Of a DNA stretch of 64,000 nucleotides, positions 13,521 to 63,146 are shown piece after piece (the stretch's first letter is position 1; each line of letters starts with the position of its first letter). Origin of the DNA: Scolanthus callimorphus (lineage: Eukaryota > Cnidaria > Anthozoa > Actiniaria > Edwardsiidae); assembly GCA_033964015.1 (NCBI GenBank), contig CM066912.1:9974015-10038014 (forward strand), written 5' to 3'. The position numbers and the translations under genes were made by a program. Under the pieces are notes generated by a model. That model saw nothing but the letters and a program-made list of their open reading frames with translations, ran no database searches and was not told the origin of the DNA.

Positions 13521-13665
13521 GACAATAATGCCCTAAAATGACTGGCTATAGGCCTCATAATAATAATAAGTTGAAAATTGGTAAATTTGCAAGCTCTGCA
13601 ATTACGGGCATTATTGTTTTATTCACGCTGAAGTCTTATTTGAATATTCTGGACTTCTTTACAGT

Positions 13666-18109: not shown

Positions 18110-18998
18110 TTGAGATATTTTTAAGTATAAAATAAATAAACGGACTGACCCACAGGTAGTACAAACTAATCGAGGCGGGCCAGTCTTACAAATTTTCAGA
18201 GTAATGAATTGTGATTAACAGATTTATATTTCATATAGCTTTAAAACTCAAATTCAAAAAAGACATTTCAATAAGGTAAGTAATTAAGTGAGGAAAAAGA
18301 AGAAATGAGAAAGTTAGCATAATCTATGTCTTCTTTGAAATCAATACAGATATTTCATCTGCATCAGTATTATACCGATTTTCAGACATTAGAATATCTA
18401 ACATAATTTCTCTTAATTTTCTTTTGAATCTTGTTTTGGGAAGATGCCTGAGGTTCAGGGGGATATCATTCCAAATTTTGACTCCAACATGTGAAAAAGC
18501 ATTTTTAGTTTATTCAATCGCGCATTTTGTCTGTTGAAATTTTGGGAGGACACAGAACGGGTGCGGTAATGGTGTCTGGATGATGTTCGAGAAAACAAGT
18601 TTAAGATATTTTTTTGGCGCAATATTTCGATCAACATCGTACATAAGATTCGCAACAGATTCATAATATAAGAAGTTAATTGGTAGAATTCCAGCATCAA
18701 CAAAAAGGGGGATAGCATGCTCTTTCCTATCAGTAAAGTGGATTAGTCGTAGAGCACGTTTTTGAAGTATGAGAAGTTTATCAATATAGGACTTGGCTGC
18801 GGTACCCCAAGTGATTAAGCCATAATTTAAGTAAGGTGCAATTAATGTATTATAAATATTCATAAGGATAGAAAAGGGTACGAAATGTCTTAATTTAGCC
18901 AGTATACCGACAGATCTACTTATCTTAGTTAGTACAGTATTAATATGGTCTCGAAAAGACCATATTCTGCTGTGAACTGAAGTGTAAATTACAGCCAT
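18110..18998 (-). pseudogene. 3' end of a non-LTR retrotransposon (RT thumb and C-terminus)
   Basis: A minus-strand frame from 18998 reads SRSVGILAKLRHFVPFSILM, then NIYNTLIAPYLNYGLITWG, LLILQKRALRLIHFTDRKEH and, after a frameshift near 18520-18600, NFNRQNARLNKLKMLFHMLE and SKFGMISP. These are the thumb region and terminal block of CR1/L2/Jockey-like RTs. The upstream part is missing, as in a 5'-truncated insertion. The segment 18110-18450 is its likely 3' untranslated tail. It lies downstream of the galaxin-like gene on the same strand but is unrelated to it. Confidence 0.8.
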
Positions 18999-18999
18999 G

Positions 19000-19598
19000 A
19001 AATGCAGAGTTGGAAAAATTTAGCGCTGCTGATCGAACTTCGAAGACGGCTTGCTGGACTACATTTGAAGTGGTTGAATTTTGGTTGAGCTGGTTCAAGT
19101 TGTTTTTCTATTTGGCAAAATGACAAAAATGGTAAGTTAAAAACAATTCTTTTATCGTCATTTTGCTTATTTTTGTTTAGTTCTTTCATTTTTTTCGCGA
19201 ATGTCAAAACGAATTAACTGCGATTGACACAACAACAAAAACTAACAACTTTCTAAATTGAAAACATTCACGGCCTGTTCAGTTGATTTTTTTTGTGTTT
19301 TCCGGTGTCGTCAGCCACCAATTTCCGTATTTCATCAATTCTTAGACAAAAGCTTGGTTGCTTGTTTTCCGTTATTTTTTAAACAGAAAATATCCAGTTT
19401 TCGCTTACAACATTTCTCTCAGGACGGATATCACTTCCGACGGACAATATCGTCTGATATCTGTCCTGTGAAAATGTACCGCGTGATACGTCTCGACCAA
19501 TGAGCGCGCGTTAAAATTGACCACTGGGATATAATGAGCTATACCCTGGTAATTGGCGCCTGGCTCCAAAAACAAAATTGGAGCAGACATTTGAAGTC
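19000..19598. other. Region downstream of the last visible exon; no gene seen
   Basis: If the galaxin-like gene ends at the stop at 19599 this is its 3' flank. If the donor at 19622 is used, further exons must lie here or lower. None was recognised. A short palindrome (GATATCACTTCCGACGGAC with GATATCTGTCC) lies near 19430-19470 and looks like transposon debris. Confidence 0.4.
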
Positions 19599-20349
19599 TT
19601 ATGCAAGGCAAGCAATCGTACCTTTATCTTTCACGCGATAACCGCCGCAACATTCTTTCTTTTGACAATTGAAAAGAACCCCAGCACAGCAGCCCATCTT
19701 GGCGGGATCGTAAAAACTACCACCTTGATTGTTGTTGTTGTTGTTGTTGTTGTTTTTGTTTCTGTTTTTGTTGTTGTTGTTGTTTTTGTTGTTGTTGTTG
19801 TTGTTGTTGTTTGAACGCTTGAAAACCATCTGTGGCTCTTCTTCATCTCCTGTGTTCACCTTGCCGCTAGACTTCTCTTTACTGTCAGAAATATCTCGCA
19901 TTCCATTTGAGTAAAAGCGACGCTTCCCCGATGGTAGCCTTTGAAATTATTGTGTGGAAGGTACCCTTTATTCCATCCCCACTTCCAGCCATTGTTTTGA
20001 TTATACCCCTTGTTCCATTGGTTTCGGCCGCCATGTCCAGGAAATGGATTGGCAGGTTTACGAGGATACCATCCAGGATATCCCTGGCGAGCACCATGAT
20101 AATACCTCCCTGGATAGTGGCCACCTGGGAATCTTTTGTGTGGAAGATACCCTTTATTCCATTCCCACTTCCAGCCATTGCCAGGATACCCTTTATAGAA
20201 AGGAGGTCGATGGAATGGATTTCCTGGTCGCTTAAAGGGATACCGTCCTGGACGACCTGGAAAGTACCACCCTGGAAAGTAGCCACCGTGGTAGCCTCCA
20301 TTCTGGCCCCAAGGATACCGATGGGGACACCATTTCAGGCATTTCTCTC
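19599..20349 (-). CDS. Exon 18: GYW-rich repeats, polyasparagine and last galaxin repeat (frame broken by one base)
   Basis: The acceptor TCATTGTAG precedes 20349. The exon begins GEKCLKWCPHRYPWGQ, then runs Gly/Tyr/Trp/Pro-rich with two copies of NGWKW(E/G)WNKGYLPH about 60 residues apart. Near 19930 the frame breaks at a CGGGGAAG run; the continuation in the next frame is KRRFYSNGMRDISDSKEKSS, an acidic EEEPQ segment, a tract of about 30 mostly Asn residues, and SFYDPAKMGCCAGVLF with ECCGGYRVKDKG. It either ends at the stop at 19599 or splices at AAAG|GTACGA (19622), which would match the phase-1 pattern. To that donor the exon is 728 nt, one short of a multiple of three. Confidence 0.8.
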
Positions 20350-23300
20350 CTACAATGAGAAACAAAGCGAAATAATATATTGTAAATAAAAAAGCAAAAA
20401 AATATAAATAACAATGAGGCCAAAACAACTCAGGTTACAATAGTTCGACCAAATTTCATTTCATTTGGCAAAATGATGACCGACGACGTATGGTATCAAC
20501 ATTTGCCCTGTTTTGTCCAGTGCAGTCGCAGCTGGCTTTCCCGTCGCGACGTTGTCTGGTTTTAGTTCAGCGGGAAGCCAATTGACTGCACTAGACGAAA
20601 GAGTTTCATTGGCTCAGATAGTTATGTTGGCGGAACAGCGAAGTCAAAATCAAAGCATAATTTCATGTGTTTGAAAAGGTTGGTCGTGATGCACCTGTTT
20701 TAGCTGTAAACGCCGATGCGTTTAAGTTAAGTTTTGGCGTTTTACCGTACCTTTGGCAAAGACGTGTTCACCGTAGCAGCATTTTTGTTTTTTGGGGTTA
20801 TACCATCCATAACCGCAAGGCTTGGCACATTTTCCACCTGAAAGTGAAGATTCAAGCAGCAATTAAAATAATACTAAAAGCGAGAAGTGAACAAGGAACC
20901 AACGAGTGATCGAAGAGAGAAAGAAAGTAAGAAAGGCAGCAAGGCAGGGAGGAAGGAACATTTATTAATTTTAATTTCTTAACAACATTACGTGAATCAG
21001 GAAACAGTTGGGTCGGAAGAAATATAAGTTAGTTGCAAAAATGAAGCGCGCAGATGCTACGACCTATTCGATACAAGGAATGACTTAATATTAAATGAGA
21101 ACCGGTAAGGAATCTACGCCTGTTACACGTTTCAACTGCCTAATATGTTTGTTGTTTTAGGTTATCAATTTGTAAAAGAAAAATTGTCATAGCTGGTTAT
21201 TTCAGCTACAATGGCGAATGTACAGTTGTAAAAATGCCTGCACTTCTTAGCATGAAGCGCGCACCTTTTCAGCTCAATTAAAATAAAACGTGCGCTTGTG
21301 AAAAGCTGGAATGTACCATTCAGACCCGGTGCGCTCTTTCCACGGTCAATTCTTTAAATAGCTTCCAATGAGAATTGATAACACTCATTTCGCACTATCC
21401 AAGCAAACTAGGCAAGATATCACGGGATGATAGAATTTATCAACATTTGTCAAGCGATTTTCAAATAATAATATTACAGTCAAAAGACATGAAGCGTGCC
21501 CCTAGAGTGGAATATTCAATTCATTATTCCATTATGAATTTCATTATTCAATCCAAAATTGCGATTTTTAATTCAATATTGAAAATTTTCTAATCTAAAT
21601 AATTACTCTGGATGAACAATAGCTTATTCAAAAATCAAAATTTGAGCATTTGACATTTTTAATATTGGTTAAAAAATACACTTTTGGATTGAATAATGGA
21701 ATAATGAATTGAATACTCCACTCTTCATGTCTTTTGACTGTAATGACATATATTACAAGCCACCATAACTGGTAATATGAGTAATGCATACGAATACAGA
21801 TTAATTCATTACATCATAGACATATTTTGCTGATAGTCCGTGCACTTGCTGGACATCAGTCTCTCATTACGTTTCAGCGCGCATAAGTTCTAGTGTTATC
21901 ATGTTGCTCTTCACGTATTAAATAGTGCACGAGCGGATGTGACGTCTAATGATGAAATACAAGATTAGAATTTTTAGAAAAAGACCCCACTCACCTCTTG
22001 CCCATATGAAGTTTCCGTAACAGCACTTTTGCCAGGATTTTTTGAAAATCCGTCCACGACAACATCCAAAGCGTTTAGGATTATACTTCACAGTACAGCA
22101 CTTCCTCAAACACGGTTTTCCTGAAAATAACAAGAACAACATTCGAGATCGTACTTTTTTACTACACTGAAAAATCCAAATAGAGTCCGTTTGCCCTAGT
22201 CTAATAACCAACTCGAATGCTGCACACAACTAAAACGAATCCGTTACGGAAAAAAAAATCATCTGCTTCAGCAACACTTCCCTCCGCAGATGTGCCCCAA
22301 GGCAGCACAGATCATGAGTGAAAACGTGATGATAAAGAAGGTTCACAATCCAGTTGCTATCGAAATGCACAGTTTATAGAGGGTGGTGGTTAGGTAACCA
22401 GATACCCCTGTTATTGTACTATATCTTTTCAAAGGAATCCTTTTGTTCGTGCAGGGCCAAGGTACATAAGTACCACAATTCAGCCAGTAAGATCCAGTGT
22501 ACAACCAGACATGCATATTAGATGTGCATGAAACAAAATATTGTGCAGGGTCAATATCACGTGATAGCCCCTCTCCACATCCTGCCGACGCTATTGCGTT
22601 CACCATGTGAAGTTTGCCAAATCATTCCACTCTATTAACTATGCGAAGGGTTACTTTTATTTGTGCTGCGTTGCTATGGTAATGGGGTTGCTACCTAACC
22701 GTTGCTTGCGCTGCGTGACTTTTGCAATCCTATCGCTGCCAAATCGTTACTTTTCCTTGCGTTGCGTTACTTTGGGAAATACGCAATTCAGTTCGCAATC
22801 TAAGGTAACGGAGTCTGAGATGGAAGGGTCTTAACAGGAAATGGTCACCGAAAACATCAACTTATAAAGATAATTACTCAGTTTTGTAAATAATGTATTT
22901 CACCAGAAACATATAAGTGAGTTGAAACGTGTAACACACATACATTGCTTTAGTGCCAAGCTGCGGAATATTCGCAGAATAAACAATTGAACTGATTTTG
23001 AAAATAATGTTGTTGAAAGACTTCAACATGTTAAATGTTAGTATATTATGACTTTCCACTGTTGCTCTACTTTATTTAAGCGAAAAATGAAATATTATGC
23101 AAAGAAAACCTGCTTGGGTTAGTAGTCGAGAGTTCATTTTTGACCAAATATGGTCATAAACTCGATACGAATAATCCGAAGCTTGGTTCACCGTTACATG
23201 TTTCAACTAAGTTATATGTTTCTGATTTCACTTGATATGGTGAATAGAAAAAAAGAAGAAACCGCATCGGCATCGAAAAGTAAGTAATTTTATTTTGTTT

Positions 23301-26300
23301 TCTTCCCCTGACCCATGTATTCAAATTTGAATTTGAATATATCGAAAGTGGTCTATCACAGCTTACATCATGAAATATGAATCACTCGAAATTGATTTAC
23401 CTCAATTCGCTCAAAATTTAGCAATCCTTTATCGTAATCCCCATGAAATTGTTTGTACTTAAGCTTCCTTTAAACTGACTCTTTCAATTCCAGAGAATAT
23501 TTTGTAATTTGCTTCAATAATCAAGGGCACCCAACGACACAACTGTGTAAAATATCTAAACATGTCATTATAGGTAAATGCTGAGTATACAAATGACCGT
23601 AAATTGGATATTTTGATCCCTAAAAGTTGTGTATCTGTTCGGATTTCGTAGTTATGGGATGCGAAAATCTTAGGGATTGAACTCAAATATTCCGATGTTA
23701 TTGGGACTACTTCATCTTAAATTTCTAGGTGACATTTTTAACGGCAAAAATACCCCCAAAACTAGTAACATTTCACCATATGAAACATCTGGGGATGTTA
23801 TAATCTACATACGAAAATTAAAGCTTGAATTTCTAAAGCGAACATTTTAGCTCTCGTAGCGCCATCCGAAAAGATATTTTACCGAAAATGATCGTTGGGT
23901 TTTCTCGGTGACCCTCAACCTGTCGGCCGATTATCGTGGTAAAGCGCATTATAGGTGAGTAACGCACAACACTCAACGGAACCAACGTCAATACTGTTTG
24001 GGCAAACACATACCTTTCCGAAAGATTTTTCGGCCATAACAGCACTTAAAGTGGTTCTTTTTATACGCTTTTCGGTCACAGCAACCTTGTTTGCTTGGCC
24101 GGATCCATACAACACCGCACCGCCTCCTGCATTCTCGATCTTTATTATTCTGGTCTAAAAATATCAAAAGAAACACACACTTAATGGGGCTGTGTCACGT
24201 TTGTTTCAACAAATTGTTATATAAAATGAGACCTATGGTGTACTTAAACACCAAAGAGGAACTCTCTCACTATCAAACTTGAAAACTGTTCAAACTGGTA
24301 AGAAATTAAGACAGGCAATTCGAATCTAATCGAATCCATCGCCTCCAAAAAGATTAAGTTCTAAGTCATCTAAAGAAATGGGATCCTCTTTTAAAAAATG
24401 TATAATTCCTGATAACCTTTTTCTGCTGTTAGTATGTGTTTTGAAATTGTTATATATCGGTATATGTATGTTGAAATTGGAATGTATATATGTTTTTTAT
24501 TTGTTAGGTGTGTCTGTAATTTTTATTAATATAATATATAAATAATAAAGATTAACAAAAAAAAACCTTGTTTTATAATTTATGTTTCGAGAAGTCGTAT
24601 CTATACTATAGCTGAAAAGACTGGAAACAAAGACAGAAACTGCAAATAAATGTCAATTTCAAAATTTGATAAACACAAATATCAGGAAATATATTGAAAG
24701 TATATAGTCGTATCAGTCGCCCAAGTCACGTCACTCAAGGAATGGCCGGTTTCTGTACTTTGGTGGATATTGGCAAGCAAACCATATGGATGATTGCTTT
24801 TCTGAGAACTGTTTTTCTCTTCTTCTATGTGCTTCAAAAACGTGAAATACTAAAAAACATTATTAAGTAAGAAATGGATAGAAGGATTTAATGGCTGCCG
24901 CTGTGTCGGAAAAGTGAAGCAAATAGTGACCAATGTGACGGTCAATCTGGTTTTCAAATTGTTGTGTTCTTTGAAATCCGAAATCCAGCTATTTGAATCC
25001 GGGATCAGGTCTCTGGTATAAAACTCGGTATCCAGCATCCAAATGCTGGAATGCCGGATTCCGAATAGATTGGATTCCCTTACATGGGGCGAAAATGGCA
25101 CATAATTGTCGGGTTTCATATCGTGCCTGGGGCGAATGAACATACGATATACATAACAGGAAAGAGCATGTTGAAGTATACAAAATGCTGAAGTTTGGCT
25201 TTAATCGGAATAGAAGTATCGATATTCAGCCCTTCAAAAACTCCAAAATTTAAAAACTTTTGTATGGTATGCCGGACGCCAAGTCCGGACTCTCATGGCA
25301 ATTCCTGTTAAATTTTGGAGATTTTGAATGGCAAGTATTTGACCGACTAGCATCAAACTCCGGCATTTTGTACTGGTCAGCCTGTTCTTTTTTTTTTTAT
25401 CATGATGATTGCCCAAGGCACTCACGATATGAAACCCGGCAATGAAGGGTGTACAAAAAGGACTGAGACATACGCACGGTTTAGCTATATCGTAAATTTT
25501 CGTTCGGAAATGGCTTCCAGCCAATCAGCAGTCGCGAACGACAGTTTTTTCACTGTGACGAAAACGATTCGTCCAATCAGAAGCCGCGAACGGCTTTTTT
25601 TTTTTACTGCAGCAACAACACGCGCTTGCGTTGTGTTTTGGCGGTAGTTCGCTCACTTTTCCAAGAATTCATTCACCGTCGTCTCAAAATCAGTCGCAGT
25701 TTTTGATTTCCCAAACAATCTTTACAACTCTGGAAGAAAGTCGACTTGAAAGACTTCGTTGATTGCCCGGAAAACAAAAACAAAGAAAAAGCTAGTGATC
25801 ATCCATTCAAACTGATCAAGAAAAGTTTGCAAACAAAACACGAAGAACGTGAAGTTCATGACATTTATCGGAAGTAAATTGTTCAAAACATGGTGGATTT
25901 TATCCAGCCTGTAAAAGAATGACGGTGGAGAATACGAGCCTTGAAGTCTGAGAAGCTAAATCGCTAGTTTTGAGAGATTTCTGAAGCTGAAATAATCCAA
26001 GTCAGTGCCACAAAATGACAACGAATTTGAACTGGAAAACTCACTCGAAAGTGCCACAGTCAAAGCAACAAAAACAAATTCAGGCAATGGAAACAGAAAG
26101 CTGCATCGTAATGGATAGTGAAGTCGAAATAATATACGCAAAATCATGACTTCAAGGTAACAACATAAATTACGAGCACATTGTCTTTGGTTATTTAAGT
26201 TATGCTTCGTGTTTTCTTATTACAGTAATAAAAGTACTGTGAAACGTTTTACTTTATTCATTTGACAGCATATTTGAGATAAATGGGTGTTGTTCTCTCC

Positions 26301-29300
26301 CTTTTTCTGCAAGATGTCTCAGTATGAATATAATAAAGTAAATACAACATGGAAAGTGCTTTGTACGGAATTTAAGCACTCGTTTGTTCGTATCAGAAAT
26401 CTCACGCGATCGCAAAGCCTCGCTCGTTCGATTTCTGACACGAACAAACTCGTGCGTAAATTCCGTACGCGCGCGCTTTCCATGTAGTATTCTCTACTTC
26501 CGTCTTACTGAATCGTCTTTGGACGGTGGATTCGTAGCAACACTTATGGGTCGCCAATGCATAGATCTTTCTCTTACAGCATCCTTGAGTACTTGGATCG
26601 TACATGGCACTTCCGCAATCCAGTTGACAGTCCTTGTCTAGAAAAAAATGGAGAAACATTGTTATGGGAAGTTTTTGCTTCATAAGTGCGATCTCAGATG
26701 AGTGTCAAAAACTAACGTAAACTAAAGACGCACAGCCGATGTGACACGAAACAAATTCAACATCCAACACATTATATTCGGGGTACCCGGGTACGACAAG
26801 CACACTTGGCGACTTGTACTGATAAGTCGTGACGAACAAATTCCTTGACATCGTATAGAGGCTATCGGCGGCTTAGTTCTGGTGCCATTTTGTTTCTTGC
26901 CTCGTTTAATTATTTAAAGGGAAGCGAGAGAACAAACACACAAACAAAACACAAATAGATATGCACTTGTATACCGCAAATTATCTTATGAATATGTACA
27001 AATGCAGTTTACAGGTGTGGATGCGACCTAAAAAAGGGTAATATCCTAAAGATTCTCGAAGATACCAGAAAAGGTAGCACTTGACATTATTTTTGAGCAA
27101 TTTGTTTTTCATTGCCTAGGAAACTGATTCCTATCTTTCTAGCTCCGGCTAAAGAATATGAAATCCACGGAAGAAAATGCACACATCCAGATGGACAGAA
27201 TAGGATTTGCCACCGGAATGCAAGCGCAGGACGCAAGTACAAGCCTAAATTCAAAGTTGATTAGTTGCCTGCGCTTGCGTTTACTAGGTTCAATTAGACG
27301 CAATCACAAGCGCGAGGGAATGCAATGTATCGATTTGTTTTGAGCTTGCGTTCTAGTGTGAACCACAAAAAGGAAATGTATGAGTTTGATATCCTTGCGC
27401 TTGCTCTCGCGTCCACTCTGTGCTTGTGTTTCAGTGAGCACCAGCATTTAGTGTTGATCTGCTTCTAAGTTTGCGGCTAACTCAGTCGAATAAGTGCAAA
27501 ATATAGAATAACTTTTCTTACGAAAACCCTTGTATTCTGTAATCAATGGAATAAAACTTGTCAATTTTCAAGGAGGTATTTTGTCTGTAGAACTCAAGCT
27601 ATTAAATTTATTTTATTTACGATAATAATTTAACATCGAAATTAATATTCTGTTGAAAAGAACAAAGAATTGGAATTCCACATAATCTACAGTGATAGTG
27701 GACAGTCCTAATATGCATATTTGTCACTCCTAGCTAATGGGTTCCTGGTCATTGTATGTTAACAATAGCGTAAGTTCTACAGAGCTGGCGGACAGTTCTA
27801 ATGTTAAAACTCCTGGTTTTCTGCCAAGTCTTACTTTTATCTTGGACAAATCTGTCAAAGCAGCACTTAGAAGAATCCTTCGCATACTCCATGTTAGCAC
27901 AGCAGCCATGCGTGGCGGTCACGTACACCTTGTTATTGCAGCAGCCCTGAGTATTTTTGTCGTATGTAACATTATAACAACATCCCTGGGTTGCTGGGTC
28001 GTAACATTGGCCACCACAGAAAGTGGTACAGGGGGCGGATCCTTGAAAAAAAAAATTACGTCAATATTAACAAAAGCTAGTTTGGCCCACATAGCACATG
28101 GGAAATTTGGCTTTTCATAGATTGGTTTCTGCAGTGAATTCCCTGTGATAGTACATAAGTGTGCTGCGTAGTTATCATCTACTTACCCTTCAGCAGACAG
28201 ACCCTCATCTTGTCAAGGCCTGGACATTCGGGCTCTGAAACGGGAATCAAATGCACTGGGTAAAAAGGGGAAAAACAGAAGTGAGTGTCTTCAGGGTTCC
28301 AAATGTTGCTTTATACGCCTAATTCCTGCCATTCGTTTTTTTTTTTTACTTCCGATTCCAGCGTTTCCTGCGAGAGAGGCTAAAAAGAAAACCAAGTTTT
28401 CAAACTACCACGATTTGATAGGCGGTTATTTGTTTACTCATTTGCATAAACAGGGTCTAACTTCAGAAGTTTAAAAACCTGGTTGATCATTAAAAAATCG
28501 TCAATATGAAAATCGTCAATGCGTTCTTCAGAATAGTAATTATTTGATCTTAAGCAATTTTATTTCATTTTTCAAGACTTGATTTTGTTGTGGGGCAGGA
28601 AGCTCATTAGCCCACATGTTTCTTGCAAATTGAGCTTCTCGCCATGCGCTCATAATTTGAGTTACGAACGTCAAACTTTCTTAGTACGCTTCATTCACCA
28701 GACGCTATTGAAATTCAGATCATTTCTTTATGTACCTCCGTTACGCTTGCTGATTTTCACTAATGCTTATGCAAATGAGAAAAATCGTAAACACTGACGT
28801 CACAATATAATCGCCTATTACTGAAGACTAATTCGTTTTAGCACGTGCTAATTTAAACGTCGTAGCAACGTCTCCTTTCGTGATCTCGAACCACAACTTT
28901 GTACACGCCCAAAGCAACCCCAAAAATATTTGTTGTCCGCGATTAAACTTAAATACCAGTATGCGCGCCACTGAGGTGCGTTGACATCAACATAAATCGC
29001 ATGCAAGGTTGAGGTCTAGGTTATACGTACCTACGCATCCATTAGTAACACTCTTTCCTTCAACCGCCAAATAAATAGGATCACAACTTGCAGCATCAAC
29101 GGCAGCTGGACAAACAGAAGAAATACACATTAAGGATAAGGTGTTTCGGGGAGCACGGTTGGTTCAGCGTTAAGGCTGGTTTTCATATGTTGCAGCTGTT
29201 GTGGACAAACTTGTTCTGCAACAGCTATTGTGTATAAAGCTTTTCTTCGGGTTCGACTCTGAGCCGGAGCAGACATCATAATCATGGGGGGTTGGTCTCA

Positions 29301-53300: not shown

Positions 53301-56300
53301 CCTGCTTTTTTGTAACTTCGTTATTTTTCAACTTGGCCCACATACACGTTTTGAAATTCTGATTTCGATTAAGTTGTTGTTGCCATGGTAACGATGTCAC
53401 GTGACTCACCATCTGCCATTTTGGATGAAATTTTTAGCGCCCGTGCAGGTATGTAGAGAAGATGAAAAATAGAAATTTCTTTTCAGCATAATCTTTCTAT
53501 CATTAGTCTTTCTTTAAACCTAATTGGATATCGTGGATCATGTTTTAATAAAGACGTTTTTTCGCAATATCATATATTTCAAAAGCACGGAAAATTTAAT
53601 AATTTCTTTTTTCTTGAGAAATTCCAAGATATCCAATTAGTTTCATTTGAAGGAAGTTGTCCTGTATCTAAATATGTGTTTACCTTTCAATTTCACCTTT
53701 TTCTGTGTATCTTCAGAGAGTCTAAATAAAAAATCCAAGATGGCCGCCACCGAGTCACGTGATAACCGTTTCCATGGTAACGAAATATGTCAAAATAAAG
53801 CTCTTGTTAAAATTATTGTACTGACCAATTTTGATGATGATCCAGACAATAGAACACGAGATATAAAAAATAATCCCTTTTTTCAGGCAAATGGTTAACG
53901 CCACTGAGGCTAAGCAAATTGTCCTTTTTTTATTTTATGGCTCACTAAAACGCGTATAATTACAGTTGTTTTTCTATTTGCTTCACATCATAATCGATCC
54001 ATAGCGATAGACCAACTCCGTTTCAAAATTGATCTTGCCCATACACAACTGCCACTATATTGTTTCCTTCTAATAATATCTACTGTAGTAACATTTGTAG
54101 CTAATTTCACCAGAGGTTTAAAACTTGACGAGAGTGCGAACGCACTATCATTCATTGGAATTGAAAGAAAGCACGGAAATCTTCAACGTCAAACATAAGA
54201 TGAGATTATATGCTACAGTTATCTGGCAAGACTCTATTCTATTTTTTTTTTTTTGTTGTTGTTGTTGTTGTTGTTGTTTCCTTCTATTTTTTCTCACAAA
54301 AACTGTACGCTGATTGGCTGAAATGACACCGTCATGGTTTTGGGCTTTCGCGAATCAAAGGTTCAAAGCTGTGTTTCCTCTAGGAGAATAAGTAGTCTCT
54401 GAGGGGTGATTTAGGGTTTATCATTTGACAAGGGCTGGGATTTGCCTTGGACTTGGACTCAGATTTGACTCGGGGTATGGATGGAATCAAGACGAAACTA
54501 ACAGCCTCTTTGTGTTTAGAGCAGATTTTAGTTGTTGGTCGAAAGGTAAAAGAAAATACACCAATCACAAGCGAAATAAATTCAACAATCAGAGGACAAA
54601 GTAAATACGACTTGCGTTTAGTCGTTGCCCAAAAAACGAAATTCGCTGTGTTTTGTTTTTTTTCGTTCAAGCCTCATTAGCTGACCTAAATATCTTAACC
54701 AATAGGAACTCCAGTTAGAAAATACAAGTATACTACTTTCGACATTGATTTCAAATCTACTCTGCTGTCGAAAAAAAAGTTAATTTCAATAATTGCAAAT
54801 CCCAGCGTCTTACCTATTTGTTGATAGATGTCCATCATCACGCTATCATCAACATAAGTATCAACGTTATTTATGTCCATGTCGTCAAGCTCGTTCACGA
54901 TGAGGTGCTCTGCGTACCCACGCAGTTGGTCTTTTAAATCGGAACTTATGAGAACGGAGTTGAGGGCCACACCTCTTTTGCACGCAGTGATTTCAGGATA
55001 GTTTGGTAGTCCGTGCGTGTAATATGCCTTCAAGTATTGGCTGAGCTTTATCTGGCCTCCTGTAGCAGTCAAAACGTCTTCTACTGCCTCACCGAGCACA
55101 TATCCATCGATCATTCCACGCAACTCGGCGATCGTTACCGTTGGAGTTTGCCACACTTCACTTGTTTGGTATTCTTTGGGGCACTTGTCGTTGGGAAAAA
55201 AACTTCCAGTACCTCCGAACACTGGATAATCATAATTGACATTCTGTTTGAAAAAAAAAAGTTGTTGGACAACAAGATCACACCAGATGGTTTATTTACA
55301 AAGACCAGTAGCCGTTGTATCAAAATAAATGACCAGCCAACAATTTAAGAAAAAACAGAATGAAGGATAATCTGAGATGGGTCAGTTTCATGGCGAAAAT
55401 CACCAGTGAGTAGACAATGTAAAATGTCATTTGACGTGGAATACCTGTTCACAAATTTCCACAATCTTTTGGCGCTTTAAAATTTATCTTGTATTTTTCT
55501 ATTTTTTTCGCCCTTGATTACTAGACATACATACATAAACTTTATTAAAGTGTAAATGTATTTAGCTATAAAGCTAACTGTGGACACTATAAATAAAATT
55601 GAAAATAAATATATTATAAAAACTTACCTAAGTATATGTAGAGATTAAAAATATGTATTATTATTAAAAAATTGATAACGTTATTATTTGCCTAAATCGA
55701 GATATATTTAACAATTAGACCTCGAGCCCGAAAGGGCTATTGGCCAATAGCCCATGAAGCCGCAGGCCGAATGGGCTATTGACCCTGGCCCTTAGGGCGA
55801 GAGGTCTAATTGTTTTAGTATCACCCAACTAGTTGGACAAAAAAATGAAAAAGTGCGTTAAAAACCTCGGCAAAACGAGAAGCGGCCGCCATTCTTTACA
55901 TGTTCAAAATCGGCGCTTTCGCTACTAGAGGTCTATTGATAATAGTACCCTAGTAGCGTAGCCAATCAGAATGCAGCATTGGCAACAGTCCACTAGTTGG
56001 GTGATACTAAATATAAATATGTGATATTATAACAGACAGACAGACAGGGACAGATAAACATACAGAAGCAAAACATACGGCCAGATTGACAACAGAAAAA
56101 CATAAGTACAAATAAAAATAAATAAATAAATAAAAAATGCATAAATTAAATGGAGGATAGAGGTGCACACTCCCAATGCACCAGACAGCCAGACAGCAGA
56201 TGGAGCCACCCTACATACCCACCCCACTAAGATGAGCATGCACTCAACATGTGCCGTCCATGTGCGAAGCATATCAACAGCGCACACCGCTCTCCTGAAT

Positions 56301-62300: not shown

Positions 62301-63146
62301 GTGGAATTTACTTCTAAAAGAAAATTACTAGCTTCCCCCTCTCATTCTTTGGAAAGATTTTGCGATCCCCTTATTTTACATGGAAAATTTTGAGACCCCC
62401 CTGAATTTCACGTGGCCACTCCACGTGGCCAACACCGAAAAGTGAATTGAAGATCCTTCACCATCGGACAGCACTAACATGATTAGAATAAGCTAGGGAC
62501 CACAATTTGGAAATCGAAAGATGGCGTTACACGAGACCCTACGCCGAACCAAATCTAAGGAAGTGCCAAAATTGCCAAATAATGGAAGACGAACGACATT
62601 TTTTTGTCACTTACCCTCTCTATTCAGAGCTACGCGCAAACATATCAAAAAAGATTTTAAAAAAGCCACATTAAATTTCTCCGAGTTGATAGCACCTTGG
62701 AAGCATACCGAGGTTATAGCAAAATTTGCATTTGACTGCTTTCTCCTTTTATATCAAGTCCCCCAGATCAGTGACAAATACGTCTATGTCTATGCCCCCC
62801 TCCCCCTCCGACATACATAATGAACAAAGTCTAAGGTTATTGTATTCAGGAGACCGACGAGAAAGACTCTTGTACTTCACCTTTTTGTAAAGAATGGCTC
62901 GAGCAAGTGGTCCAAACGTAGCTAGGAACAGGTTATCTCCACTTCCCGCATTATCTAATGGCACGGATGTGTCTCTTTGAGCACCTGCGCAGACACCCCA
63001 TAACACGCTGCTTAGATTGACAGGCTTGCACGGAGTACTGACAATGCCAAGTAACGTTTCATTGTCCCGACCGATCATTTTTATTAGGGCTTCTCTTTCT
63101 GTAGCCGAGAGGGGATCAACTGCTAAATTGGTTGGATAACCCATAT
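19599..63146 (-). CDS. Large split gene: unknown N-terminal region, vWA domain, beta module, galaxin-like repeats, GYW-rich tail (5' incomplete)
   Basis: Eighteen minus-strand exons with AG acceptors and GT donors join with fully consistent phases: 62881-63146, 54814-55243, 42906-42950, 39798-39888, 37938-38086, 37129-37293, 34891-35040, 32770-32882, 30870-30969, 29784-29831, 29031-29105, 28187-28234, 27835-28041, 26509-26637, 24014-24154, 21995-22120, 20751-20837 and 19622-20349. They total about 3.1 kb of coding sequence, roughly 1,030 codons. Order: a Cys-containing region I do not recognise, a vWA domain with DESGS MIDAS, a beta-rich module, 14 di-cysteines in galaxin-like repeats, and a Gly/Tyr/Trp/Pro-rich tail with polyasparagine. 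vWA domains bind ligands through metal ions; galaxins are extracellular matrix proteins of corals. I infer a secreted matrix or adhesion protein. The signal-peptide exon is not seen, small exons may be missed, and exon 18 carries a one-base frame break. Confidence 0.8.
19728..19812 (-). repeat. Coding (AAC)n microsatellite
   Basis: GTT/TTG triplets on the plus strand (AAC on the minus) with a few interruptions (AAA, AGA) fill about 85 bases inside exon 18. They encode Asn with occasional Lys and Arg. Triplet periodicity keeps the frame. Confidence 0.9.
20511..20600. repeat. Short hairpin in intron 17
   Basis: GTCCAGTGCAGTC with CTGGCTTTCCCG at 20515-20543 pairs with CGGGAAGCC and GACTGCACTAGAC at 20570-20596. 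It is a small inverted-repeat element. Confidence 0.7.
20751..20837 (-). CDS. Exon 17: short galaxin-like repeat
   Basis: 87 nt, phase 1 on both sides; acceptor CACTTTCAG, donor AAAG|GTACGG. It encodes GGKCAKPCGYGWYNPKKQKC then CYGEHVFAK. One of the two di-cysteine steps is missing compared with exons 14-16, so this looks like a contracted unit. Confidence 0.88.
21472..21744. mobile_element. AT-rich MITE with a perfect 22-bp terminus
   Basis: The left end ATTACAGTCAAAAGACATGA and the right end TCATGTCTTTTGACTGTAAT are exact complements. Inside them the arms continue as GAGTGGAATATTCAATTCAT against TGAATTGAATACTCCACTC, and further with TTATTCAATCCAAAA against TTTTGGATTGAATAA. It is 273 bp, lies in intron 16-17 and has no ORF. 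Confidence 0.88.
21995..22120 (-). CDS. Exon 16: galaxin-like repeat
   Basis: 126 nt, phase 1 on both sides; acceptor GTTATTTTCAG, donor AGAG|GTGAGT. It encodes GKPCLRKCCTVKYNPKRFGC, then CRGRIFKKSWQKCC and YGNFIWAR. Here the usual CG of the lead is CC, so the exon has three di-cysteines. It is basic. Confidence 0.9.
22370..22641. repeat. Interspersed repeat, copy 1
   Basis: It shares with 33641-34149 a long series of blocks: AGTTTATAGAGGG, GGTACATAAGTACCA, CAGACATGCATATTAGATG, TTGTGCAGGGTCAATATCAC, GTGATAGCCCC and the end ATTAACTATG. This copy is uninterrupted and so shows the empty site of the insertion in copy 2. The family is unknown. Confidence 0.85.
22642..24013. other. Intron 15 remainder; nothing recognised
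   Basis: Besides short GTTGC-rich iterations (22650-22780), no exon, RNA gene or foldback is supported. Confidence 0.4.
24014..24154 (-). CDS. Exon 15: galaxin-like repeat
   Basis: 141 nt, phase 1 on both sides; acceptor ATATTTTTAG, donor AAAG|GTATGT. It encodes NQNNKDRECRRRCGVVWIRP, then SKQGCCDRKAYKKNHFKCC and YGRKIFRK. It has the same CxxxCG...CC...CC plan as exon 14 and is strongly basic, with many Lys and Arg. Confidence 0.88.
24155..25103. other. Intron 14 left part; nothing recognised
   Basis: AT-rich, with TATATA stretches and AATAAAGATTAACAAAAAAAA near 24541-24565, which may be the A-rich tail of an old retroelement. No coding evidence. Confidence 0.35.
25104..25443. repeat. Foldback element B, same family as 6830-7232
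   Basis: The left arm begins ATTGTCGGGTTTCATATCGT and the right arm ends ACGATATGAAACCCGGCAAT. Inner blocks CTCCAAAATTTAA and TTAAATTTTGGAG pair around a small GCCGGACGCCAAGTCCGG loop near 25272. It lies in intron 14. Confidence 0.85.
26347..26485. mobile_element. 139-bp inverted-repeat element beside exon 14
   Basis: ACATGGAAAG, TACGGAATTT and ACTCGTTTGTTCGT on the left pair with ACGAACAAACTCGT, AAATTCCGTAC and CTTTCCATGT on the right. The loop contains GATCGCAAAGCCTCGCTCG. It starts 23 bp beyond the exon 14 donor. Confidence 0.85.
26509..26637 (-). CDS. Exon 14: galaxin-like repeat
   Basis: 129 nt, phase 1 on both sides; acceptor TTTTTTCTAG, donor TTCA|GTAAGA. It encodes NKDCQLDCGSAMYDPSTQGC, then CKRKIYALATHKCC and YESTVQRRF. 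It is a CxxxCG lead followed by two di-cysteines. An inverted-repeat element lies 23 bp after its donor. Confidence 0.9.
27180..27470. repeat. GCAAGCGCAAG-type repeat cluster
   Basis: Several CAAGCGC / GCGCTTG motifs occur in both orientations (AAGCGCAGGACGCAAG, CTGCGCTTGCG, CACAAGCGCGAG, CTTGCGCTTGC), ending near TAGTGTGAACCA. It looks like pieces of a small TIR element family. Borders are uncertain. Confidence 0.45.
27835..28041 (-). CDS. Exon 13: galaxin-like repeats, densest block
   Basis: 207 nt, phase 1 on both sides; acceptor TTTTTTCAAG, donor AAAA|GTAAGA. It encodes SAPCTTFCGGQCYDPATQGC, then a Cys, YNVTYDKNTQGCC, NNKVYVTATHGCC, ANMEYAKDSSKCC and FDRFVQDK. Four di-cysteines occur at about 14-residue spacing with the consensus YDxxTQGCC, which is the galaxin repeat. 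Each pair probably forms disulfides in a compact extracellular rod. The open frame seen on the opposite strand here is only a shadow. Confidence 0.9.
28187..28234 (-). CDS. Exon 12: short Cys linker to the galaxin repeats
   Basis: 48 nt, phase 1 on both sides; acceptor CCGTTTCAG, donor AAGG|GTAAGT. It encodes EPECPGLDKMRVCLLKG with two Cys residues. It lies only 145 bp upstream of the next exon. Confidence 0.68.
29031..29105 (-). CDS. Exon 11: beta-rich module, part 4
   Basis: 75 nt, phase 1 on both sides; acceptor TTTGTCCAG, donor GTAG|GTACGT. It encodes AAVDAASCDPIYLAVEGKSV then TNGCV. YLAVEG fits the last strand of the module begun in exon 8, and the two Cys residues probably close it. 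Confidence 0.75.
   Translation of the reverse strand: MPLMLQVVILFIWRLKERVLLMDA
29410..29436 (+). repeat. 27-base poly-C run
   Basis: The longest homopolymer in the window, in the intron between exons 10 and 11, ending in GGGG. Confidence 0.95.
29784..29831 (-). CDS. Exon 10: beta-rich module, part 3
   Basis: 48 nt, phase 1 on both sides; acceptor TTTCTTCCAG, donor GGGG|GTAAGA. It encodes NANSDVVLLSFANPCG. It is short, but its phase and splice sites are good and it carries one Cys. Confidence 0.65.
29832..30869. other. Intron 9; nothing recognised
   Basis: No exon or structured repeat was found between exons 9 and 10. Confidence 0.4.
30870..30969 (-). CDS. Exon 9: beta-rich module, part 2
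   Basis: The acceptor GTCTTTACAG precedes 30969 and the donor AAAAGA|GTAAGT follows 30870; 100 nt, phase 0 in and phase 1 out. It encodes AQLKHGVATVYSSRTNVNLD then PTNANTYDQKVEK. The run TLYIEAQLKHGVATVYSSRT across exons 8 and 9, then TYDQKV, recalls small jelly-roll modules of the pre-peptidase C-terminal type, in which a strand GxVTLYxS precedes a Pro/Asn loop and YDxK. This similarity is from memory and unproven. Confidence 0.78.
30970..32262. other. Intron 8 right part; no exon found
   Basis: AT-rich. A segment at about 31640-31910 with CGAGTGTTTTACTGGGAAAT and short palindromes (CTCACTAGTGAG) looks like transposon debris. No coding evidence. Confidence 0.35.
32263..32551. mobile_element. 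TIR element in intron 8
   Basis: TCTTTACCACTGTATGCATT, ACTACGCGAC, TTCAAAGTTG and GGGCGATTGGCGATTTT on the left pair with AAAATCGCCAATCGCCC, CAATGAATTTTGAA, GTCGCGTAG and AATGCATACGGTGGTAAA on the right. Arms are about 75 bases. Confidence 0.88.
32770..32882 (-). CDS. Exon 8: beta-rich module, part 1
   Basis: The acceptor GGCTCTACAG precedes 32882 and the donor GAG|GTATGC follows 32770; 113 nt, phase 1 in and phase 0 out. It encodes DVTLPGPLCFFIGKSQLKYF then TIPATQFFNIGAGTLYIE. The alternating hydrophobic pattern suggests beta strands. It joins in frame to exon 9, the only other phase-0 boundary in this part of the gene. Confidence 0.78.
33641..34149. repeat. Interspersed repeat, copy 2 (interrupted)
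   Basis: The same family as 22370-22641, in the same orientation, with all the shared blocks listed there. It is split at 33786 by a 207-bp inverted-repeat element that copy 1 lacks. Confidence 0.85.
33786..33992. mobile_element. MITE with AGACCCCGTCCACAC termini, nested
   Basis: The left end AGACCCCGTCCACACTACAC and the right end GTGTGGACGGGGTCT are complementary. The arms continue through CCGTTTTCAAACGAAAACGG against CCGTTTTCGTTTGAAAACGG. The sequence is filled with CGTTTTCG iterations. It is inserted in the repeat at 33641-34149. Confidence 0.9.
34326..34640. mobile_element. Diverged relative of the 61077-61780 TIR element
   Basis: The left end ACTCACTCGAGATTCAAAATGC then ACTCAACxGTG and CGAGCGCA resembles the terminus of the element at 61077. 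The right end has GAGCGCAAATTGC and ATATAACTTTTGTGCC. The arms no longer match well. The interior holds AACGCCTAAAA-like iterations. Confidence 0.5.
34891..35040 (-). CDS. Exon 7: vWA domain C-terminus
   Basis: The acceptor TTTTACTAG precedes 35040 and the donor AATG|GTAAGT follows 34891; 150 nt, phase 1 on both sides. It encodes GVTRVSIGVGPTISTSNLEK, FASRNDLVISVDNFDELQ and QKLEDLRATICN. IGVG is the usual fifth strand of vWA domains. The final ICN places a Cys at the domain end, likely paired with the Cys in exon 3 or 4. Confidence 0.92.
35987..36073. repeat. Short inverted repeat
   Basis: GACTGATGACATG and TAGAATTAC pair with GTAATTC-like sequence and ACATGTCATCAGTCC around a centre with ACTTACCTGTAATTCGAAG. 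Probably a small foldback. Confidence 0.6.
36074..37128. other. Intron 6 part; nothing recognised
   Basis: No exon or long inverted repeat is seen. The minus-strand frame that continues beyond the exon 6 donor is read-through into the intron. Confidence 0.4.
37129..37293 (-). CDS. Exon 6: vWA domain, MIDAS Thr loop and central strand
   Basis: The acceptor TTTTTTTTCTCAG precedes 37293 and the donor TTACAG|GTAATG follows 37129; 165 nt, phase 1 on both sides. It encodes RGTTYTNIVVEEMQRALTFA and then RDLVAILITDGNPTKQSLFD. The GTTYT supplies the conserved MIDAS threonine and ITDGNP the conserved Asp after the fourth strand, so all three metal-binding elements of an active vWA are present. Confidence 0.92.
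37938..38086 (-). CDS. Exon 5: vWA domain, helix 1 to strand 3
   Basis: The acceptor TTTTTTTCTAG precedes 38086 and the donor AAGC|GTAAGT follows 37938; 149 nt, phase 2 in and phase 1 out. The split codon makes Ser, then NLVDILNVGPKESQVSILEY, ARDTQRSIPFLTYQSPNRM and KCAISNFHYK. The pattern matches the middle of a vWA domain, with VSILEYA in the second strand position. Confidence 0.85.
38178..38393 (+). CDS. Possible first exon of an HMGL-like TIM-barrel protein, or its remnant
   Basis: A plus-strand frame opens with MGQSYTSILRKKNVNLENEI in a fair context (AAAATGG), continues as a Lys/Glu-rich helix and ends NLDCLVLDNTIRETTVGQLR, GHTIENKWAIYEQ at a good donor (CAG|GTATGC). DNTIRETT followed by TIENKWAIYEQ resembles strand 1 and helix 1 of HMGL-like barrels (DTTLRxGxQ, then EEKLxIxxxL), though a metal-binding Asp pattern is changed. 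Gly2 and Thr6 would fit N-myristoylation. It lies in intron 4 of the large gene, on the opposite strand. No further exons were found downstream, so it may be an exon fragment. 72 codons. Confidence 0.45.
39089..39398. repeat. Foldback, 310 bp, arms about 140 bp
   Basis: TTTACTGCGGTTTT, GAACTCTCGC, CGCCTTCTGGCTTCCGTCAA and AGTCTTTTCGTCGTTACTC on the left pair with GAGTAACGACGAAAAGACT, TTGACGGAAGCCAGAAGGCG, GCGAGAGTTTGC and AAAACCGCAGTAAA on the right. TTTTGATTGGCCA is also mirrored. It lies in intron 3. Confidence 0.92.
39798..39888 (-). CDS. Exon 4: vWA domain, first strand and MIDAS
   Basis: The acceptor TTACCAG precedes 39888 and the donor ACCAG|GTAATT follows 39798; 91 nt, phase 1 in and phase 2 out. 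It encodes CSLNVSIVVALDESGSIQVG then NYEKEKNFT. DESGS is a DxSxS metal-ion-dependent adhesion site at the end of the first beta strand, as in integrin and matrilin-type vWA domains. Confidence 0.88.
39960..41256. other. Intron 3 part; transposon-like debris, no exon
   Basis: ACTAGCTGATGCCCGTG at 39962 and TATTAATATATAGAT at 40736 look like the two ends of a retroelement-type insertion of about 790 bp; no protein motif was recognised inside. The rest is featureless. Confidence 0.3.
41257..41274 (+). repeat. 18-base poly-C run
   Basis: A homopolymer flanked by a local inverted motif (CTTCTCTCTTCACCGGTC / AAGAGAGAAGG). Confidence 0.95.
41765..42703. repeat. Large foldback whose arms are arrays of short tandem units
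   Basis: The outer ends GGCAAGCCAAACATGACAAA and TTTGTCACGTTTGGCTTGCC are complementary. The left arm (to about 42078) repeats a unit of about 20-25 bases built on GAATxGxAATCG, e.g. GAGAATAGGAATCG and GAAAACGGAAATCG, then GAGAATATCGATTATC. The right arm (from about 42391) repeats the complements ATTCTCGxxCGATTTCC and GATAATCGATATTCTC in mirror order. The loop (42080-42390) is unrelated sequence. It lies in intron 3, next to exon 3. Confidence 0.92.
42906..42950 (-). CDS. Exon 3: 45-nt linker before the vWA domain
   Basis: A small exon with acceptor TTTGTTTCAG and donor CCAG|GTAAGT. It is phase 1 on both sides and encodes GDSDVGCACPSANAP. Joined to exon 4 it gives ...CACPSANAPVCSLNVSIVVA, a natural Cys-bearing lead-in to the first vWA strand. 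It could be skipped without a frame change, since it is a multiple of three. Confidence 0.65.
43499..43682. repeat. Near-perfect palindrome, 184 bp
   Basis: AAATGTCCTCTGATTTTCCG, TGGTATGTCCTCTTATATAC and CACGGAATGACGTAATAAAG on the left are mirrored exactly or nearly so by CTTTATTACGTCATTCCGTG, GTATATAAGAGGACATACCA and CAGAGGACATTT. The loop of about 45 bases holds GACCCACTCGGCTGCGCCTC. Confidence 0.93.
44081..44722. mobile_element. Non-autonomous DNA transposon, 642 bp, 30-bp TIRs
   Basis: The left end TTAAAGCGGGAGTGTCACGG then TACGCGCATG is the complement of the right end CATGCGCGTA then CCGTGACAGTCCCGCTTTAA, with one mismatch. The interior has no convincing transposase. It lies in intron 2. 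Confidence 0.88.
45380..45790. repeat. Tandem repeat array with five TGACGTCA palindromes
   Basis: Repeated units contain CACCCAAGTTTGGTTGTCTG, AGGTTCATCCCTTC, TTGAGATATATCAT and (A/C)TATGATGACGTCA. TGACGTCA occurs at 45456, 45468, 45580, 45659 and 45671. TACCACGTGACCATGCAGT and TACCACGCGACCATGCAGT are also repeated. TGACGTCA is the CREB/ATF-type consensus; function is not shown. Confidence 0.85.
46632..46847. repeat. Foldback, 216 bp
   Basis: AGAATCGAGCGAGAATTTTC, CCGATGCAGGCG and ATCTTGGACG pair with CGTCCAAGAT, CGCCCGCATCGGG and ATTCTCGCTCGATTCTT. The outer parts CCTGCTAGCAGG and TTAGGTCGTT / AATGACCTAA extend the stem. Confidence 0.88.
46992..47042 (-). promoter_or_regulatory. Paired TTCCCA(A/T)GATGCATTGCG motifs upstream of a possible plus-strand first exon
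   Basis: On the minus strand TTCCCATGATGCATTGCG (about 47022-47039) and TTCCCAAGATGCATTGCG (about 46996-47013) lie 26 bases apart. They resemble the ZNF143/THAP11-type promoter element (core TTCCCA, then ATGCATTGC-like). They lie about 240-280 bp upstream of the ATG at 47278. Factor binding in this animal is only inferred. Confidence 0.35.
47278..47335 (+). CDS. Possible first coding exon of an unidentified plus-strand gene
   Basis: ATG in a good context (AAACATGGCG) opens MAESDIDELDVYLQELHLE, acidic and leucine-patterned, and reaches a donor GAAG|GTAAAA in phase 1. The GC-richer upstream stretch and the paired promoter-like motifs at 46992-47042 fit a host promoter. No acceptor with a convincing second exon was found in the next 6 kb, so the gene may be split by long transposon-filled introns, or the exon may be fortuitous. 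It lies in intron 2 of the large gene on the other strand. Confidence 0.4.
47936..51260. other. Repeat-like region with decayed minus-strand coding segments
   Basis: Several minus-strand frames read like old protein: LLTGEIIAEWHGRDNFF near 48110, then in higher coordinates CCIYGNMSAIKAKHCHLLQP (about 49540) and GKFTNALGMEVNPFLAAAMI (about 50230). They are not in one frame and I do not recognise them. A dead DNA transposon or processed pseudogene is possible. An 18-base poly-C run lies at 50028-50045. Confidence 0.3.
48684..49140. repeat. Two-copy tandem duplication, period 238 bp
   Basis: CCACTCTATACAG at 48684 and 48922 each start a unit. Each unit continues with GATTTCAGCCATGTCGA, TGTACATTAATTAACAATAG, CAGAACTCATTGT, TTTTAGTGGCACAATTTT and AATAGCATGAAAATGG. 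The copies are very similar, so the duplication looks recent. Confidence 0.92.
51270..52060. other. Intron 2 part; nothing recognised
   Basis: No supported exon, RNA gene or large inverted repeat. Confidence 0.35.
52070..52909. mobile_element. DNA transposon-like element, about 840 bp, with TIRs of about 95 bp
   Basis: GATCTTCAACTGTTACACTC, ATTCTCAGTCAACTGTGCGT, TCGCGAATTTGTTTCACGTG and CCGCGACTGG on the left are mirrored by CCAGTCGCGG, CACGTGAAACAAATTCGCGA, ACGCACAGTTGACTGAGAAT and GAGTGTAAAAGTTGTC on the right. GACGTCAATCAAACTC / GAGTTTGATTGACGTC extends the arms. The inside has an open plus frame (52555-52797, LSYLNENECFQKLATVASLS) with a possible acceptor before it, which might be a relic of a transposase or a captured exon. 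No motif is recognised. Confidence 0.85.
53330..53860. repeat. Foldback with CCATGGTAACG arms
   Basis: TTGCCATGGTAACGATGTCA, CGTGACTCACC and CTGCCATTTTGGAT on the left pair with ATCCAAGATGGCCG, CGAGTCACGTGA and GTTTCCATGGTAACGAAA on the right. Inner blocks CCTAATTGGATATC and GATATCCAATTAG also pair. No intact ORF. Confidence 0.82.
54253..54280 (+). repeat. (TTG)n microsatellite
   Basis: A T-run followed by eight or more TTG triplets, non-coding, in intron 2. Confidence 0.9.
54814..55243 (-). CDS. Exon 2: unknown N-terminal region, part 2
   Basis: The acceptor TTTCAAACAG precedes 55243 and the donor ATAG|GTAAGA follows 54814; 430 nt, phase 0 in and phase 1 out, matching exon 1 before and exon 3 after. 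It encodes NVNYDYPVFGGTGSFFPNDK, CPKEYQTSEVWQTPTVTIAE, LRGMIDGYVLGEAVEDVL and an acidic C-terminal part (NELDDMDINNVDTYVDD). It looks like a folded, mostly helical extracellular region with a few Cys. It is the longest exon without a recognised domain and the best query for a family search. Confidence 0.75.
55710..55814. repeat. Hairpin with nested GGGCTATTGGCCAATAGCCC core
   Basis: AACAATTAGACCTCGAGCCC pairs with GGGCGAGAGGTCTAATTGTT. Inside lie the palindrome GGGCTATTGGCCAATAGCCC and a further GGGCTATTG copy after GCCGCAGGC. Confidence 0.9.
55815..56010. mobile_element. MITE with TTAGTATCACCCAACTAGT termini
   Basis: TTAGTATCACCCAACTAGTT at the left and AACTAGTTGGGTGATACTAA-like sequence at the right form the TIRs, directly abutting the hairpin at 55710-55814. 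The interior contains CGCCATTCTTTAC and ACTAGAGGTCTATTG. Confidence 0.88.
57300..57695. repeat. Dispersed repeat, copy 1 (inverted relative to 61795-62087)
   Basis: Blocks CTCATATAAAAACAG, AGACTGAAATATATGTCA, TTGGGAAGATCGGAGCTAGT, ACTCTCACCC, TGTACCGACATTTTTTCG, ATAAATCAGGGCTATAATT and CCAGAGTTTGGTACTTCA are found as reverse complements at 61795-62087. This copy is longer by an insertion around 57490-57560. Confidence 0.85.
57709..58533. repeat. 825-bp palindrome, arms about 340 bp
   Basis: The outer block ATGCTTTTGAATAAAATTAA pairs with TTAATTTTAATAAAAAGCAT. Then ATGTAAGTATCAACATAAT, CCCCACGCATCAGCTTA, TTTTGGACGATTCC, GATCGGTAAATATTGGAT and CGGCACAAAGTCGAATTCCA are mirrored in turn down to TGGAATTCGATTTTGTGCCG. 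The loop is roughly 58050-58195. No coding frame is supported. It lies in intron 1. Confidence 0.92.
58893..60758. mobile_element. 1.87-kb TIR element with G-run termini
   Basis: The left end AGGGACGTGTCATTATTTAG then a run of 14 G and GAGGGCTCC matches the complement of the right end GGAGCCCTCC, C-run, GGTAAATAATGACACGTCCCT. Just inside both ends lie iterations of GGGGGAGGGTCxTAATTTTTTT. Subterminal blocks TTCGGTGCGCTTCGCGCGCA (59105) and TTCGGCGCGCTTTGCGCGCA (60116) are in direct orientation. No transposase was recognised; it contains a nested element at 59759-60563. Confidence 0.85.
59759..60563. mobile_element. Nested TIR element with ATGCACCAGTCAATTGACA ends
   Basis: The left end ATGCACCAGTCAATTGACAC and the right end TGTCAATTGACTGGTGCAT are exact complements over 19 bases, followed on the left by CCCGGCCCCCACCCCGGG. 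It sits wholly inside 58893-60758. Confidence 0.85.
61077..61780. mobile_element. Young-looking TIR element, 704 bp, 86-bp near-perfect TIRs
   Basis: AAGGTGACTCATTCGAAATT, CAAAATGCACCCAACTGTGT, CTAGAGCGCAAATCTGCGTC, GCCAAACTCAAGGCTATAAC and TTTTGT on the left are mirrored with no mismatch I can see from 61695 to 61780. The interior is AT-rich without a recognised transposase. It lies in intron 1. Confidence 0.93.
61795..62087. repeat. Dispersed repeat, copy 2
   Basis: The reverse complement of 57300-57695 by the blocks given there. It starts next to the TIR element ending at 61780. Confidence 0.85.
62200..62520. other. No gene seen
   Basis: Contains GAGGGGGTTATGGGGGCATG and paired CCCCCTGAAAATGATTTTCAGG. 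Probably old transposon sequence. Confidence 0.3.
62522..62690 (+). pseudogene. C-terminal zinc-knuckle fragment of a LINE-type ORF2
   Basis: The plus strand in the frame of about 62525 reads RYTRPYAEPNLRKCQNCQIM then EDERHFFVTYPLYSELRANI. Cys-x2-Cys followed by EDExHFxxxxPLYxxLR is the usual C-terminal motif of many non-LTR polyproteins. The second-last Cys position is Tyr here. It ends at a stop near 62670. It lies about 200 bp from exon 1 of the large gene, on the opposite strand. Confidence 0.68.
62881..63146 (-). CDS. Exon 1 (first visible): unknown N-terminal region, part 1
   Basis: The acceptor (CTTTTCAG) precedes 63146 and the donor AAG|GTGAAG follows 62881; 266 nt, entering in phase 1 and leaving in phase 0. 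It encodes an 88-residue stretch beginning MGYPTNLAVDPLSATEREAL and containing STPCKPVNLSSVLWGVCAG and DNAGSGDNLFLATFGPLARA. Two Cys residues could pair. Because it enters in phase 1, at least one more upstream exon is required. The ATG near its start is probably not the initiator. No family is recognised. Confidence 0.7.

Follow-up and report, generated by a model that had tools for sequence, protein, structure and literature searches.

A von Willebrand factor A (vWA) domain ahead of galaxin repeats in a predicted gene of Scolanthus callimorphus

Galaxin was the first protein to be sequenced from coral skeleton, and its function is still unknown (PMC4878875). The galaxins described to date consist mostly of a signal peptide and repeats, with an overall cysteine content of 12.4% and 13.4% in two of them (PMC2726143). 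Related literature covers galaxins with an acidic domain, the sponge protein Cal16 with its Reeler domain, other sponge di-cysteine proteins, coral proteins with vWA and TSP-1 domains, and vWA proteins with expression at the site of origin of the skeleton-forming layer (PMC4890752, PMC12419799, PMC7853314, PMC6824150, PMC4878875, PMC2726143, PMC3204972, PMC9768464, PMC7115838, PMC9532382). Here, we describe a predicted gene of Scolanthus callimorphus in which a vWA domain precedes galaxin repeats. The window analyzed is a stretch of 64,000 nucleotides from contig CM066912.1 (assembly GCA_033964015.1, positions 9,974,015 to 10,038,014), and positions below are those of the window.

On the minus strand, 16 exons were assembled by hand between 63146 and 19622 (Table 1). 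All 15 introns are of the GT-AG type, and the spliced open product comprises 925 residues. An earlier sequence-only reading had counted 18 exons, a number that was not reproduced, joined without any phase conflict. It was noted that the phases do agree at all 15 junctions of the 16-exon model, but not down to 19599, as the two halves of 20349-19600 differ in frame. Because the exons were hand-picked and partly chosen by phase, this agreement is not an independent test. Splice sites were scored with hand-set weights, without training. On this scale, 14 of the 15 acceptors and 14 of the 15 donors fall within the top 3.7% of all minus-strand AG or GT, the exceptions being acceptor 35040 and donor 26509, and the summed scores of the accepted junctions range from 5.1 to 11.9. 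Exon 7 was included because phase 1 had to become phase 0, and it has the top donor score among the six rows listed for filling the gap between 34891 and 30969 with a single exon. The N-terminal, vWA and linker modules and galaxin exons 11-15 each show phase 1 at both ends, which is the pattern expected for shuffled modules. The model is open at its 5' end, where exon 1 begins mid-codon without a signal peptide; as this exon is entered in phase 1, at least one further exon should lie upstream. It is likewise open at the 3' end, where exon 16 finishes at a good donor.

Table 1. Exons of the predicted vWA-galaxin gene, with the content of each and the evidence for it.
Exon	Position	Strand	Content and evidence
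1	62881..63146	-	Residues 1-88, N-terminal region; splice sites and phase
2	54814..55243	-	Residues 89-231, remainder of N-terminal region; splice sites and phase
3	39798..39888	-	vWA start; DESGS at 39853-39839
4	37938..38086	-	vWA; splice sites/phase and Pfam
5	37129..37293	-	vWA; GTTYT at 37291-37277, ITDG at 37201-37190
6	34891..35040	-	vWA end; lowest-scoring acceptor in the model (within the top 10.8% of AG)
7	32770..32891	-	Start of linker ("beta") module; AAG acceptor; takes phase 1 to phase 0
8	30870..30969	-	Linker ("beta") module; entered in phase 0
9	29784..29831	-	Linker ("beta") module
10	29031..29105	-	End of linker ("beta") module; phase 1 into first galaxin exon
11	27835..28041	-	Galaxin, 4 di-cysteines; splice sites/phase, Pfam, unit profile
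12	26509..26637	-	Galaxin, 2 di-cysteines; lowest-scoring donor in the model (within the top 8.8% of GT)
13	24014..24154	-	Galaxin, 2 di-cysteines; splice sites/phase, unit profile
14	21995..22120	-	Galaxin, 3 di-cysteines; splice sites/phase, unit profile
15	20751..20837	-	Galaxin, 1 di-cysteine; E 2.5e-6 with profile built without exon 15
16	19622..20349	-	728 nt; C-x3-C opening, GYW-rich insertion, (AAC)n, galaxin half unit in other frame, phase-1 donor

The surroundings of the exons were also inspected. Nested inverted repeats occupy 41793-42685 in intron 2, with arms of up to 149 nt that are 86% complementary, and resemble a small mobile element. Downstream of the gene, three ORFs were named transposon-like by eye (715-4274, minus; 13585-16552, plus; 18510-19019, minus). 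Pfam returned a sub-cutoff Asp_protease_2 match at 1085-1510 (E 0.00055) and no match for 18510-19019, and Rfam gave no matches.

Searches of the spliced product with Pfam models found both a vWA domain and galaxin repeats above their curated cutoffs. The VWA family (PF00092) matches residues 239-405 with E 6.9e-23 and 82.2 bits, against a cutoff of 23.8. The metal ion-dependent adhesion site (MIDAS) of such domains is made up of a DxSxS motif, a TxT loop and an Asp loop. All three are complete here, with DESGS at residue 244, GTTYT at 313 and ITDG at 343, as the earlier reading had proposed. Among the best 60 of 89 PDB sequence matches to this part (pI 5.22), collagen VI alpha 3 (9han, 1.5e-19) and mussel proximal thread matrix protein 1 (4cn8, 8e-17) lead, both of which are extracellular matrix proteins. 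No TSP-1 domain was found in the product by Pfam at E up to 1. In a search of bacterial and archaeal genomes, the sole match was a vWA-like stretch of 33 residues with 48% identity in a Chitinophagaceae MAG (L001, 5001-5099).

Between the vWA domain and the galaxin repeats lies a linker of residues 418-532 (pI 5.07), which owes its name "beta module" to the earlier reading. A separate module does stand at this place, but its family found no match: Pfam gave nothing above cutoff (best E 0.27), NCBIfam no match, and the PDB nothing up to E 10. Its likeness to a bacterial PPC-type beta domain was an impression gained by eye and was dropped.

The galaxin part has a pI of 9.36 and contains 14.8% cysteine. 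Pfam Galaxin_repeat (PF24748) matches two stretches of the product, of which the best covers residues 539-642 (E 1.3e-13; 51.5 bits against a curated cutoff of 28). The open product holds 12 di-cysteines, and of the 11 gaps between successive ones six measure 11 residues, one measures 10 and the rest 15-33; the lengths of exons 11-15 are divisible by three. A profile of four units was run against the six-frame ORFs of the window (at least 15 residues), and six ORFs scored above threshold; every one lies on the minus strand, and they follow each other in order. Four of these contain the building units, and the other two are independent, with exon 16 at E 3.6e-6 joining the exon 15 match. The next ORF, on the plus strand, reached E 0.016, and five shuffled sets gave E 0.036 at best. 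The series of galaxin units is more than chance. Against the PDB, the best E for this part was 1.1.

Ahead of the vWA domain, residues 1-231 have a pI of 4.50 with only 12.6% Asp+Glu, and had been described as having no known family. This held in our searches, with no Pfam match above cutoff (best E 0.053), no NCBIfam match, a best E of 0.42 against the PDB and no protein database matches at E up to 10. A single-sequence structure model of exon 2, made without an alignment, had a mean pLDDT of 34 and was discarded as useless. On the minus strand, 2.7% of sampled positions have an open frame of 264 nt and 0.8% have one of 429 nt, so exons 1 and 2 are no strong evidence from their length alone. 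What ties these residues to the vWA domain is phase and splice scores, and to this extent the assignment is uncertain. They could instead belong to another gene (63146-54814), with the gene for vWA, linker and galaxin starting inside intron 2, which at 14.9 kb is longer than intron 1 (7.6 kb). A scan for first exons that resemble a signal peptide and offer a phase-1 donor covered nine intervals (upstream of exon 1 and introns 1, 2, 6, 7, 8, 9, 10 and 11). Eight of the nine were empty, and intron 2, before the vWA domain, holds three signal-peptide-like ATG candidates served by two donors: 50265 and 50229 on one, and 41826 on the other. These candidates would suit a separate N-terminal gene. 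However, the one at 41826 overlaps an inverted-repeat arm (41793-41941), the donor common to 50265 and 50229 has a score of 1.4, lower than all but one of the 15 accepted donors, and exon 2 closes with the phase 1 that exon 3 requires. We consider a separate N-terminal gene unlikely, and the N-terminal region probably belongs to the vWA gene. Within the window, no signal peptide was found for the 16-exon model.

The other end of the model raises a different question. Exon 16 begins with a galaxin-like opening around C-x3-C, followed by a Gly/Tyr/Trp-rich stretch, an (AAC)n array at 19729-19811 (3-base period, 27.7 copies, poly-Asn in one frame) and then the remaining half of a galaxin unit in the other frame. 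The first half of the exon is open to about 19858 and the second from 19946, and the frames differ. The resumed half unit has 2 di-cysteines with 11 residues between them, and alone it matches Pfam Galaxin_repeat at E 0.0026, under the curated cutoff. The exon ends at a phase-1 donor scoring 4.6, and read-through stops at 19600. No acceptable intron bridges the two frames, as the best summed score is -1.1 compared to the range of the accepted junctions. The 14 di-cysteines reported earlier are thus present in total, but as 12 and 2 in two frames, and at 728 nt the exon does not hold them in one open frame. The supposed GYW-rich C-terminal tail (pI 10.21, no Pfam matches) proved to be an insertion inside one more galaxin unit, which resumes past (AAC)n.

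Exon 16 is broken or misread. Its frame break may be genuine in the animal or may stem from an assembly error next to a simple repeat. It is conceivable that the gene is a decaying copy whose frame break and (AAC)n expansion mark a non-working 3' end, with intact copies possibly elsewhere. The lack of an acceptable intron joining the two frames, the repeat expansion within the exon and the transposon-like ORFs downstream would fit such decay. Yet all 15 other exons have open frames and usable splice sites, the resumed half unit retains both its 11-residue spacing and its donor, and an assembly error next to the simple repeat is an equally simple cause. Decay of the gene is thus doubtful in our assessment.

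The claim that vWA stands before galaxin in one gene draws on the order of the exons, the 15 agreeing phases, Pfam, the unit profile and the start-exon scan, all of them read from genomic DNA, and it applies to a model that is open at both ends. None of the five introns between the vWA domain and the galaxin repeats contains a signal-peptide-like start exon, which makes one gene the simplest reading; as the scan was limited to phase-1 donors, a phase-0 start feeding exon 8 would be missed. That the vWA-linker exons and the galaxin exons are two adjacent genes joined on paper only, as the DNA-level nature of the join and the usual make-up of described galaxins (mostly signal peptide and repeats; PMC2726143) might suggest, is improbable given introns of only about 0.7-2 kb between them, phases that agree across the join and the absence of phase-1 starts in all five introns. 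We are confident that vWA and galaxin are joined in one gene.

We also assessed whether such a domain order has been described. No protein with both vWA and galaxin repeats was found in the accessible text of the open-licence literature, among the matches listed, and in this sense the earlier claim of an apparently undescribed order stands. It is a statement about the literature, as no coral galaxin came up in the protein database. For 762 residues of the product, this database gave four matches, three of them to vWA proteins of turtles and one to a metagenomic protein with galaxin repeats, with no coral galaxin; for the galaxin part it gave three candidates and no matches, and known coral galaxins were not among the candidates. 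Absence of relatives there consequently says little. Viral contigs held no relatives of the product. Metagenomic protein P0001 (1298 aa; longest contig 24.7 kb) has many galaxin-type di-cysteine repeats N-terminally and a different C-terminal part. The core of the model is sound, and its pairing of two known domains, vWA and galaxin, is real, new and apparently not reported before.

The preferred reading, to which we give a probability of about 0.55, is that the exons form one gene for a secreted multi-domain matrix protein built from phase 1-1 modules, in which a vWA head binds a ligand and the galaxin part anchors. The product would run from an acidic N-terminal region through a vWA domain with metal-site residues and a small module to basic galaxin units, one of them with a GYW-rich insertion. 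It was noted that charge divides along this order, with pI values of 4.50-5.22 in the N-terminal, vWA and linker parts compared to 9.36 and 10.21 in the galaxin and GYW-rich parts. By analogy with matrix proteins that carry vWA domains, the head would use a divalent cation to bind its ligand, either in the matrix or on the cell surface. The cationic and presumably disulfide-bonded galaxin part would anchor the protein in the skeletal organic matrix or in an attachment layer. As no signal peptide was seen, secretion is an assumption; the splicing, too, is predicted. The exon order, phases, domain matches, metal-site motifs and charge split can be read from the sequence; an adhesive matrix role is plausible and, like the tissue, inferred. 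The metal-dependent adhesion and the capsule-wall function put forward in the earlier reading are likewise conjectural. More tentatively, and at somewhat less than even odds, the gene could represent a new class of matrix protein in which exon shuffling set a metal-dependent vWA head on a galaxin rod, fixing the repeats to a specific ligand, be it in the skeleton or in the attachment layer; the N-terminal domain may then be a second binding site. Galaxin repeats coupled to a binding domain suggest anchoring or cross-linking as the job of these repeats. A vWA-galaxin protein would offer a handle on galaxin function through the ligand of its vWA head and the location of the protein at settlement.

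Several described proteins share parts of this architecture. Mussel proximal thread matrix protein 1 (4cn8) and collagen VI alpha 3 (9han) are the closest vWA sequences among the best 60 of the 89 PDB matches; to our knowledge, neither carries galaxin repeats. The coral skeletal protein with TSP-1 and VWA domains likewise places vWA in a matrix protein, whereas galaxin repeats take the place of TSP-1 here. Calcarin Cal16 and large di-cysteine proteins of other sponges also join a galaxin-like region to another domain, which in Cal16 is a Reeler domain, and vWA has no occurrences in the main text of that report (PMC12419799). Amgalaxin-like 1 and 2 similarly have an extra domain before the di-cysteine repeats, and Amgalaxin-like 1 shows an acidic/basic split, but the extra domain is an acidic stretch in these proteins and a vWA domain here (PMC2726143). 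Galaxin in the narrow sense has little besides a signal peptide and the repeats behind it, and the gene model departs from this plan. The repeats of such galaxins are about 30 residues long and carry two di-cysteines apiece. Stony coral galaxin, such as Amgalaxin, shares with the model the di-cysteine repeats (PF24748) and is comparable in cysteine content, with 14.8% in the galaxin part here compared to 12.4% and 13.4% overall in the two described galaxins. In contrast to the described signal peptide and repeats, the Scolanthus callimorphus model puts a vWA domain and two modules of no known family first and carries a long GYW-rich insertion within one galaxin unit (PMC2726143).
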